Source: Janibacter alkaliphilus (GTDB lineage Bacteria; Actinomycetota; Actinomycetes; Actinomycetales; Dermatophilaceae). From it: a stretch of DNA of 64,000 nucleotides. The stretch is taken from NCBI RefSeq assembly GCF_013408565.1, contig NZ_JACBZX010000001.1, positions 682,001 to 746,000 on the forward strand, given 5' to 3'. The translations under genes were made by a program, and so were the position numbers. Positions 34,477-36,951 of the stretch are shown in pieces; within the stretch, counting starts at the first letter, position 1; each line of letters starts with the position of its first letter. Below the pieces are notes generated by a model. The model was not told the origin of the DNA, did not search any database, and saw nothing but the letters and a program-made list of their open reading frames with translations.

Positions 34477-35685
34477 TCACTGGACGGTGCGGCGCTCCCG
34501 CAGCCGGTCGATCTCGCCCTCGTCGAGGCCGAGCCGGGTGAGCAGGTCGGTGGTGTGCTGACCGAGCGCCGGGACGTCGCCCATCGGCAGCTCGACGTCG
34601 CGGAAGGTCATCGGCGGCAGCAGCGCGGGCACCGGGCCGACCTCGGTGGCAACGTCGCGCCAGCGGTCGCGCTCGCGCAGCTGCGGGTGCTCGACGACAC
34701 CGGCCAGGTCGTTCACCTGAGCCGCGGCCACCCCGGCCGCGGCGAGCGCGTCCTCAAGCTCGGTGGTGGTCATCCGACGGGTGCGGCGGGCGACCTCGAC
34801 GTCCAGCTCGGCGCGGTGCGCGACCCGGGCGACGTTGCTCTCGAAGCGGGGGTCGCCGGCGAGCTCGGCGTCGGCGAAGACGCGGTGGCACAGCAGCGAC
34901 CAGCCGCGGTCGTTCTGGATGCCGATGAGCACCTCGCCGTCGGTGGTCGGGTAGGCGTCGTAGGGGGCGATCGCTGCATGGCTCAGGCCCATCCGCGGGA
35001 TCTGCCGGTGCTCGTAGAGCTGGACGTAGAGGGGGTGGCCCATCCACTCGACCGTGGCGTCGAACATCGCCACGTCGACGACCGCGCCCTCGCCGGTGCG
35101 CTCGCGGCGGTAGAGCGCGGCCAGCACGGAGGAGAAGGCGTACATGCCGGCGGCGATGTCCGAGGTGGGGATCCCGGTCTTGGCCATGTGCTGCGGGGTG
35201 CCGGTGATCGCGACCAGCCCGGCCTCGGCCTGGACGAGCATGTCGTAGGCCTTGCGGTCGCGGTGCGGGCCGCTGGTGCCGTAGCCGCTGAGCCCGACGA
35301 CGACCAGCCGGGGGTGGCGCCGGTGCAGCTCGTCGGGATCGAGCCCGAGGCGCTCGGCGGCTCCGGGGGCGAGGTTCTGCACGAGCACGTCGGCGTCGGC
35401 GACGAGGCGGTGCAGCAGGTCCCGGCCCTCGTCGGCCTTGAGGTCGACGGCCAGCGACTCCTTGCCGCGGTTGAGCCAGACGAAGTGGGAGGCCTGGCCG
35501 GCCACCGCGGAGTCGTAGGCGCGGGCGAAGTCCCCTTCGCCCACCCGCTCGATCTTGATGACCTCGGCGCCGAGGTCGGCCAGGTGCCGGGTGGCCAGCG
35601 GCGCGGCCACCGCCTGCTCCAGCGCGATCACCCGGACCCCGGCGAGCGGCAGCCCGGGGCTCTCGGCGGCGGGCGGCGTCGTCAT
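34477..35685 (-). CDS. Class III CoA-transferase (CaiB/BaiF family)
   Basis: Full-length 402-aa formyl-CoA-transferase-fold enzyme. GVRVIALEQAVAAPLATRHL, GAEVIKIERVGEGDFAR, SHFVWLNRGKESLAVDLK and the catalytic Asp region RKAYDMLVQAEAGL are present. It probably transfers CoA from succinyl-CoA or another thioester to a dicarboxylate, which would start the pathway. First gene of the minus-strand run. Start ATG 35685 has only a weak Shine-Dalgarno; an in-frame ATG at 35709 (eight codons earlier) falls on the palindrome. Confidence 0.9.
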   Translation of the reverse strand: MTTPPAAESPGLPLAGVRVIALEQAVAAPLATRHLADLGAEVIKIERVGEGDFARAYDSAVAGQASHFVWLNRGKESLAVDLKADEGRDLLHRLVADADVLVQNLAPGAAERLGLDPDELHRRHPRLVVVGLSGYGTSGPHRDRKAYDMLVQAEAGLVAITGTPQHMAKTGIPTSDIAAGMYAFSSVLAALYRRERTGEGAVVDVAMFDATVEWMGHPLYVQLYEHRQIPRMGLSHAAIAPYDAYPTTDGEVLIGIQNDRGWSLLCHRVFADAELAGDPRFESNVARVAHRAELDVEVARRTRRMTTTELEDALAAAGVAAAQVNDLAGVVEHPQLRERDRWRDVATEVGPVPALLPPMTFRDVELPMGDVPALGQHTTDLLTRLGLDEGEIDRLRERRTVQ

Positions 35686-35708
35686 GACGTCGATCTTGGG
35701 GCAGCGCA

Positions 35709-35722
35709 TTGATGAGCATCAA
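35709..35722. promoter_or_regulatory. Operator-like palindrome upstream of the CoA-transferase run
   Basis: TTGATGAGCATCAA: two perfect 6-bp arms with a 2-bp spacer, 24-37 bp upstream of the annotated start in a stretch that is clearly more AT-rich than its surroundings. Its position suggests a regulator site at the promoter of the catabolic run. Confidence 0.5.
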
Positions 35723-35764
35723 GCACCTTCTCGATATGAGATTGCTACCCCCCACGCATCAATC

Positions 35765-36034
35765 CGCAACTGCCCGGGCAAATCACACTTCGGTGCGCAA
35801 CTGCCCGGGCAAATCACCGATCCTGCGCAACTGCCCGGGCAAATTTCGCCCGTCCCCCGCAACTGCCCGGGCAAATCACCCCACCCGGCGCAACTGCCCG
35901 GGCTTCTGCGCACCCACCCCCGCAACTGCCCGGGCAAATCACCCCACCCGGCGCAACTGCCCGGGCTTCTGTGCACCCACCCCCGCAACTGCCCGGGCAA
36001 ATCACCGATCCTGCGCAACTGCCCGGGCAATTTC
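35765..36034. repeat. Array of nine 15-21-bp repeats with about 31-bp period
   Basis: The 393-bp gap between tesB and the CoA-transferase gene holds nine copies of CGCAACTGCCCGGGC, starting at 35765, 35796, 35826, 35858, 35889, 35921, 35952, 35984 and 36014 (steps of 30-32 bp). Six copies continue AAATC or AAATT, two continue TTCTG, and the last continues AATTT. Most copies contain the 10-bp palindrome TGCCCGGGCA. Units 4-5 and 6-7 are near-identical 63-bp duplicates. No gene is convincing here: the open frames through it follow the repeat and have no homology I recognise. Confidence 0.9.
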
Positions 36035-36078
36035 GCCCTACCCCGCAGAACAGGACGGGAGGGAGGGGTGGGCTCGGG

Positions 36079-36951
36079 TCAGGAGGAGAGCTTGACCAGG
36101 GCGAGCTGGCTCATCGAGGCCACGTGCCGCCCCGCGACGTGCATCTCGCCGACGCCGAGGGCACGGCCGTGGGCCAGGCTGGGCACCGCGCAGTCCATCT
36201 GCACCCAGCCGGTGAGGTCGACCAGCTCGTGGAAGGCCATCGTGTGGGTGAGGCTGAGGATCCGGCTCCCACCGGCGTGCCGGGCGCTGCCGGTCATCCG
36301 GAAGGCCGGCTCGATGAGGCTCATGTCCGAGGCGTAGGCCATGACCGCCGCGGTGCGCACCGGGTCCCCGACCACCTCCCCGTCGTCGAGGCGCCACCAC
36401 AGGCTCTGCTCGCTCGCCCGCTCGGGGACCGGGGTGAGGAAGGTGGGCGGCTCGACGTGACGAAGGTCGACCGGGCGCCGGATCCGCCACCAGGCCGGCA
36501 GCCGCTCGTCCCCGCCGTAGCGCTCGGCCAGCGGCACCAGCCCGTCCGGTCCGGGGACCTGCCGCGGGGTCACCGTGCGGTAGGACGGCAGGTCCGCCCG
36601 CACCTCGCCGAGCCGGACCGTCGCGGTGAAGCCCACGTCCCCGTGCTCGTCGAGCAGGCTGACCCGCCGGGTGGCCATCCGCCGACCGCCGCCGAGGGCG
36701 CGCACCCGCCAGGTGTTGCTGCCGGTGACCGGCACCCCGGAGAGGAAGTCAGCGTTCAGCGCCAGCGGCACCACCCCGGCCGGCAGGTCGTGGCCCGCAG
36801 CGGCGACCGCCTGGGCGAGCAGCAGACCGCCGAAGACCCGGTCGGTCGGCTGGCCCTGGTCGGGCGCGGTGAGCAGCAGCTCGCCGCCCTCCTCGCCGTC
36901 GGGGCGCAGGGTCAGCATCTGCCACAGCTGCTCCACGGTGATGCGCTCCAC
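36079..36951 (-). CDS. tesB: Acyl-CoA thioesterase II (TesB family)
   Basis: Double hot-dog thioesterase of 290 aa that releases free acids from acyl-CoA. The N-terminal RVFGGLLLAQAVAAAGHDL contains the conserved GG motif. The second domain has YASDMSLIEPAF with the catalytic Asp, followed by LTHTMAFHELVDLTGWVQMD. The GTG at 36951 is preceded by AAGGGG. The gene is upstream of the repeat array on the same strand, so the array separates it from the catabolic run. Confidence 0.9.
   Translation of the reverse strand: MERITVEQLWQMLTLRPDGEEGGELLLTAPDQGQPTDRVFGGLLLAQAVAAAGHDLPAGVVPLALNADFLSGVPVTGSNTWRVRALGGGRRMATRRVSLLDEHGDVGFTATVRLGEVRADLPSYRTVTPRQVPGPDGLVPLAERYGGDERLPAWWRIRRPVDLRHVEPPTFLTPVPERASEQSLWWRLDDGEVVGDPVRTAAVMAYASDMSLIEPAFRMTGSARHAGGSRILSLTHTMAFHELVDLTGWVQMDCAVPSLAHGRALGVGEMHVAGRHVASMSQLALVKLSS

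Follow-up and report, generated by a model that had tools for sequence, protein, structure and literature searches.

Introduction

The best-known short repeats tied to one gene are the repetitive extragenic palindromic (REP) elements, which go with the REP-associated tyrosine transposases (RAYTs). As far as the accounts cited here describe them, REPs and the REP doublets forming hairpins (REPINs) are short intergenic palindromes with many copies per genome and a lineage-specific sequence; cognate repeats lie beside a nuclease-type gene, occur in tandem clusters and are targets of insertion sequences (PMC3116915, PMC3733652, PMC1525189). The dRS3 repeats of Neisseria, classed as CGTC-1 REPs, are in the portion of the account cited also short palindromes, mostly in large clusters and without a transposase gene of their own (PMC3733652). 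The repeats that we describe here share these traits. They form a nine-unit array in a 64,000-nucleotide stretch of the genome of Janibacter alkaliphilus (contig NZ_JACBZX010000001.1, positions 682,001 to 746,000 of the forward strand; hereafter the window), and we propose that this array belongs to a repeat family dispersed through intergenic regions. The unit of the family is probably the cognate site of a predicted AbiEi-Vsr fusion protein, the product of a gene that lies elsewhere in the same genome, G000:C1:154854-155828 (G000 being the window's own genome).

The differences from the described systems are as clear as the likenesses. RAYTs (Y1_Tnp, PF01797) were found in none of 16 genomes of the genus, G000 included, with the control positive in 5 of 14 named genomes. 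The gene bracketed by repeats here encodes an AbiEi-Vsr fusion rather than a tyrosine transposase, and most units are direct repeats, spaced at nearly whole helical turns. The account cited defines REPs by a palindrome that carries a GTAG or CGTC tag at one of its ends (PMC3733652); inspection by eye of the G000 unit consensus revealed neither tag at its ends. We therefore rejected a REP/RAYT system proper: the RAYT enzyme is missing, and there are differences in bracketed protein, tags and arrangement. The dRS3 repeats differ in sequence, and the part of the account cited reports no cognate gene for them (PMC3733652).

The fusion protein itself recalls other systems. Its N-terminal part is predicted to adopt the fold of AbiEi type IV antitoxins, to which a nuclease domain is here fused, with palindromes on both sides of the gene and throughout the genome; the remainder is modelled with a Vsr-like fold that keeps the conserved acidic residues of Vsr/EDxHD nucleases. 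The EDxHD/Vsr-type endonuclease I-Bth0305I, an intron-borne homing enzyme, differs: the gene studied here is flanked by intact copies of its presumed site, and it is the sites, not the gene, that have multiplied. At the level of search listings, the open-licence literature retrieved by the domain names and related terms contained no such pairing of repeat and nuclease.

A dispersed family of intergenic arrays

The motif CAACTGCCCGGGCA has 504 matches in G000 with up to one mismatch (264 + 240 on the two strands, palindromic units being countable on both), as against a single match for the reversed control. Array anatomy was studied in 51 stretches fetched around arrays, plus the window, which together contain 67 arrays of two or more units, a lower bound for the genome, and 382 units. 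All 67 arrays are intergenic according to our own simple, unvalidated gene caller: 27 occupy convergent gaps, 30 tandem gaps and 10 divergent gaps. In the 315 inner units, each position from -7 to +8 round the core is held by one base at a frequency of at least 0.92, a conservation that is partly built in because units were picked by core and left arm. The right arm reads AAATCAC or AATTCAC in 149 of these inner units. In 30 of the 67 array-final ones it is AGTTGCG or AGCTGCG and so completes the palindrome. Adjacent units follow each other at steps of 29-35 bp (mean 31.4), with 34 and 35 bp occurring once each.

Spacers are 80% identical within arrays and 36% identical between them, where 5 of 17,425 pairs are identical; shuffling the letters for the between-array comparison gives 31% identity and no identical pair. 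Since spacers are alike within arrays and different between them, arrays grow by local duplication, as a preliminary description of the window had proposed, and the loci are not copies of a single array. Judged from the sequences, what the G000 arrays have in common is motif and spacing. The 7-13 bp spacers, often repeated inside arrays, are too short for CRISPR, as had been noticed before; CRISPR spacers measure about 26-72 bp and are unique. Searches of phages, plasmids, viral contigs and named genome contigs (sets that possibly do not include the host genome) found no match to the motif, and a phage or plasmid origin was accordingly set aside.

A bidirectional transcription terminator acting as an RNA hairpin was also considered. 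In its favour, 57 of the 67 arrays have a gene end on one side or both, the perfect palindrome reaches a folding energy of -17.4 kcal/mol, and three units jointly fold better than shuffles on both strands (z -2.6). Nevertheless, a single inner unit reaches -3.3 kcal/mol, no better than shuffles, 10 arrays occupy divergent gaps, and the arrays in tandem gaps are oriented with the genes 16 times and against them 14 times, so that we regard a terminator as quite improbable.

Two kinds of DNA-binding protein were considered as partners. Noc sites share a CCCGGG core, which made a Noc/ParB-like binder one candidate. TetR-type genes, recognized by eye next to one array each in G000, G138 and G101 (G numbers designate genomes), were rejected as general binder, each being limited to one locus.

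A predicted AbiEi-Vsr gene bracketed by the array palindrome

Comparison of array neighbours between species showed one gene family adjoining arrays in G000, G138 and G074. Its member G000:C1:154854-155828, with a 325 aa product, has arrays on both sides, and the units that enclose it are intact rather than half-sites. The protein matches AbiEi_4 and MTES_1575 restriction endonuclease (REase), both below the Pfam cut-offs; MTES_1575 is presented in the cited part of its description as a novel Vsr-type REase domain (PMC3710099). In the predicted structure (predicted local distance difference test score, pLDDT, 92.6), residues 21-217 match an AbiEi antitoxin with a root-mean-square deviation of 7.5 (PDB 6y8q, with Rv2827c, 1zel, as the other AbiEi reference) and residues from about 220 to 323 match I-Bth0305I (PDB 3r3p) and Vsr, the matches coming from a second-look aligner that started from Foldseek's ranking. 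The model thus points to an AbiEi-like part fused to a Vsr/EDxHD-like nuclease part. The acidic residues of the nuclease part are invariant. The protein family has a match in 179 of 186 genomes of the bacterial family, and the entries inspected are named very-short-patch-repair endonuclease, AbiEi-domain protein or hypothetical protein. By eye, the neighbours of the G000 gene are a MerR-type regulator and a methyltransferase.

Relatives of this protein in the genus that are about 52% identical to it adjoin their own, different 20-bp near-palindromes of the form GCA-N14-TGC, among them GCATTCCCCTAGGGCAATGC in G117, GCAAGACCCTAGGGTTTTGC in G153, GCATTGCCCTACGGCAATGC in G151 and GCAAGAGCCTAAGCAGTTGC in both G154 and G149, while the near-palindrome of the G138 relative was seen on one side only. 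We measured bracketing as the longest exact word common to both 350-bp flanks of a gene, in 48 of 49 loci (a gene fragment, L223, was left out). A word of at least 17 nt is shared at 24 of the 48; three of these loci had prompted the idea, and 22 of 45 reach that length without them. Of twenty further loci, 7 share at least 17 nt and 12 at least 14 nt, which brings the family total to 31 of 68 at the longer threshold. Among control genes, none of 129 from four other genomes reached 17 nt, nor did any of 133 G000 genes chosen with near-array genes excluded (5 reached 14 nt). Of 177 stand-alone genes, a set into which the nuclease gene itself had fallen and from which it was taken out, one reached 17 nt and 5 reached 14 nt; this single positive is a D-serine-dehydratase-like gene flanked by copies of another repeat. 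Bracketing by palindromes is also frequent among more distant family members.

The gene-side motif also recurs elsewhere in its own genome in six cases (G000, G138, G154, G149, G117 and G153). With up to 4 mismatches of 20 allowed in genome samples, own-motif copies per 100 kb number 13 in G138, 5 in G153 and only 3 and 2 in the G149 and G117 samples; 11 were found in 200 kb of G154 and 9 in the window, compared with 0-2 for the motifs of other genomes in the same samples. Those new copies that occur in pairs or larger groups are 31, 32 or 40-41 bp apart. G144 and G126, without a relative at 52% (best 40% and 37%), have 2 and 0 copies of any motif of this set in their samples. Motif distance correlates with protein distance (Mantel r 0.52, p 0.0015, n = 11, leaving out G100, whose register is unclear; r 0.47, p 0.009 without G149), and gene and repeat family look as though they evolve together.

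These results bear on the fallback suggested in the preliminary description, namely a neutral tandem repeat. It would have grown by slippage in intergenic DNA, and the bracketed gene would be a coincidence. Such a repeat would fit the likeness of spacers within arrays and the avoidance of called genes. It would leave aside the bracket test with its controls, the recurrence of the gene-side motif in its own genome, the persistence of motif and spacing while spacers diverge between arrays, the different motifs that relatives carry at similar steps (see below) and the existence of a candidate binding gene elsewhere in the genome. We consider it highly improbable.

Paralogs provide several observations of their own. 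Other family genes of G000 carry motifs unlike that of G000:C1:154854-155828. A second palindrome, TTATCGGGTAACCCGATAA, lies 3' of the family gene at G000:C1:2805016 (L276); with up to 2 mismatches allowed, words of this type match about 9 times in 566 kb of G000, and similar palindromes bracket paralogs in G154, G117, G151 and G144. Two more family genes, at G000:C1:3122337 (L275) and 1529500 (L210), are bracketed by palindromes of types GACAGTCCTAGGACTGTC and CAACTGCCTAGGCAGCTGG. As for the stand-alone control gene mentioned above (L247:13409-14540, in G117), the element on its two sides is 39 nt long, CGCTCCCTGAGGAGGTTGCGCAGCAACCGTCTCGAAGGG, and occurs in either orientation.

Arrays of other species

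The G000 motif is nearly confined to its genome. Fifteen genus-mates have 1-10 matches each (controls 0-5), G144 retaining a degenerate pair of G000-type units. A two-unit pattern occurs in 2 of 149 genomes of the bacterial family (216 pairs in G000, one in G074) and the exact 16-mer in 3 of 396 genomes of the order (164 in G000, 4 in G074 and one in G454, within an apparent coding region). In the single array of G074, units follow each other at 31, 21 and 21 bp. A blind repeat scan of 100 kb per genome uncovered 30-31 bp arrays with a different core, CCTTAAGG, in G138, and none of that kind in G144, G154 and G126. With up to one mismatch, the G138 motif has 228 matches in G138, 65 in G155, 27 in G101 and 0-9 in others.

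G138 steps are mainly 20, 30-32 and 41-44 bp, and array steps across genomes fall mainly near 20-21, 30-32 and 40-44 bp, with an exception of 28 bp in G154; the tallies register near-palindromic arrays on each of the two strands, and among their values are a single step of 51 bp and multiples of 63-64 and 93-94 bp. The three classes lie near two, three and four turns of the helix, in line with the whole-turn spacing claimed at the outset. The phasing argument rests on the separateness of the classes; a period scan showed no preference for 10.5 bp.

From one species to another, most of the sampled array sites differ. A convergent gene pair common to G000 and G101 encloses a GCCCGGGC-type array at G000:C1:1651551 and a two-unit CCTTGAGG-type array in G101 (L158), and a few other sites shared between G000 and the G138 and G101 samples have one orthologous neighbour; by a rough estimate such sharing is near chance. 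In G101, arrays of the G138 motif are degenerate, with 1 of 21 units exact compared with 62 of 133 in G138, a comparison biased by the choice of G138 stretches mostly from exact matches; this fits a decay of orphan arrays.

The fusion protein could instead be a regulator or nucleoid protein that binds the arrays as roadblock, insulator or chromosome organiser, with arrays kept by host selection and a nuclease domain used for another purpose. The intergenic position of every array examined agrees with this, as do the spacing near whole helical turns, the share of arrays in convergent gaps (27 of 67, compared with 92 of the 515 pairs of adjacent genes in these stretches, array gaps counted in) and the absence of polarity with respect to replication (22+/24- and 9+/12-, with the origin assumed at coordinate 1), by which a replication-oriented arrangement was ruled out. 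The near absence of arrays from genus-mates, the unlike sites of sampled arrays, the invariant acidic residues and the presence of palindromes downstream of the gene as well speak against it, and we judge a regulator or nucleoid protein rather unlikely.

Arrays also serve as landing sites for an insertion sequence. In G138, six of six copies of one 1433-bp ISL3-family element (L168, L177, L185, L188, L190 and L191) are inserted inside the CCTTAAGG core of array units, the 8-bp core forming the target duplication. Two neighbouring copies are separated by 50 bp, the length of a 42-bp unit together with the duplicated core. The related elements of G155, G151 and G149 use different targets, and G000 has partial ISL3 transposase matches at C1:986257-986796 and 1876953-1877719.

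A proposed nuclease and its presumed sites

The best reading of these data is that the arrays are REPIN-like dispersed elements dependent on the AbiEi-Vsr fusion, for which we infer binding, cutting and spreading. The protein would bind the 20-bp near-palindrome as a dimer, and whole-turn spacing would place neighbouring dimers on one face of the DNA. More speculatively, nicking or cutting at the site followed by repair might seed and enlarge arrays, so that the repeats might be propagated in trans, a dependence like the one assumed for REPINs and RAYTs. Growth inside one locus proceeds via tandem duplication. The general idea of a protein-binding array, already present in the preliminary description, gains support in this form.

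Several points weigh against this dependence. At 37 of the 68 family loci no exact word of at least 17 nt is common to the two flanks, and a tolerance of two mismatches lets 7 of 120 control genes share an 18-mer. Two dispersed sites of G117 fit sister motifs of G150, G101 and G151 equally well, and the motifs of distant paralogs (up to 42% identity) are not enriched in samples of their own genomes, so that array dispersal may be limited to one subfamily. G155 has its 65 matches to the G138 motif and no subfamily gene in a 79%-complete assembly, and the subfamily gene of G101 carries a motif unlike that of the G101 arrays. The co-divergence of motif and protein could follow from shared descent without contact, the survival of cells with hundreds of nuclease sites is not accounted for, and most relatives are represented by samples only.

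If the dependence holds, an unrelated enzyme class appears to have arrived at a REP-RAYT-like arrangement, and a common gene family acquires a testable function. Many family genes have their own site alongside, and genomes therefore list candidate protein-site pairs from which a recognition code could be read and directly tested. We would tentatively go further, on a reading for which the balance is slightly unfavourable at present: the family, widespread in actinobacteria, may represent a new class of nuclease, specific for palindromic sites that it writes and maintains itself, with lineages re-specifying protein and site together, the sites of one subfamily expanding into genome-wide, helically phased arrays, and arrays decaying when the cognate gene is lost or replaced, perhaps as in G101.

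The array in the window and its neighbourhood

An exact-copy scan found nine copies of CGCAACTGCCCGGGC within positions 35765-36028 of the window, starting at 35765, 35796, 35826, 35858, 35889, 35921, 35952, 35984 and 36014 (steps of 31, 30, 32, 31, 32, 31, 32 and 30 bp); 100 shuffles contained none (mean expected number 0.00). The units have the palindromic core originally described. Tandem Repeats Finder reported periods of 31 (score 258) and 63 (score 341) on 35796-36028, the latter confirming a duplicated pair of units that had also been pointed out. The features are as follows:

35765..36035, plus strand: whole array, nine near-palindromic units of 20-22 bp (CGCAACTGCCCGGGCAAATCAC type) with short spacers
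35765..35786, plus strand: unit 1, CGCAACTGCCCGGGCAAATCAC
35796..35817, plus strand: unit 2
35826..35847, plus strand: unit 3, right arm AAATTTC
35858..35879, plus strand: unit 4
35889..35910, plus strand: unit 5, variant right arm TTCTGCG
35921..35942, plus strand: unit 6; together with unit 7 it repeats units 4 and 5 at a distance of 63 bp
35952..35973, plus strand: unit 7, variant right arm TTCTGTG
35984..36005, plus strand: unit 8
36014..36035, plus strand: unit 9, array-final, right arm AATTTCG
35710..35763, minus strand: promoter-proximal region between array and CoA-transferase start, by eye like the array-less gap of three genus-mates
34477..35709, minus strand: CoA-transferase-like gene (identity by eye), without functional link to the array on present evidence
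36079..36951 or longer, minus strand: thioesterase-like gene (identity by eye), stop codon 43 bp past the array

The array therefore sits in the gap between two minus-strand genes. It had been described as lying 79 bp before a CoA-transferase heading the minus-strand run, and as a possible operator array of that catabolic operon. The distance is correct for the second ATG and becomes 55 bp for the first, at 35709; the gene does not quite head the run, since the thioesterase-like gene on the other side of the array is on the same strand. This proximity of 55-79 bp is what an operator has in its favour. Because the motif is spread over the whole genome, with its 504 matches scattered without a link to promoters, and is nearly absent from genus-mates, and because three genus-mates have no array at this site, we ruled out this role, to which we attach next to no credence. 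These three, G154, G117 and G101, have orthologs of both flanking genes with 78-113 bp between the alignments. The preliminary interpretation is thus supported in part.

A scan of the window against Rfam matched no known RNA family. At several arrays of the family, CCCCCTTCG/CGAAGGGGG flanks look terminator-like by eye, and a further CCCGGG-centred element (ACCCGGGTGAACGCGAAGGGGG type) adjoins some arrays, among them those at L088, L102 and L072, also as seen by eye.
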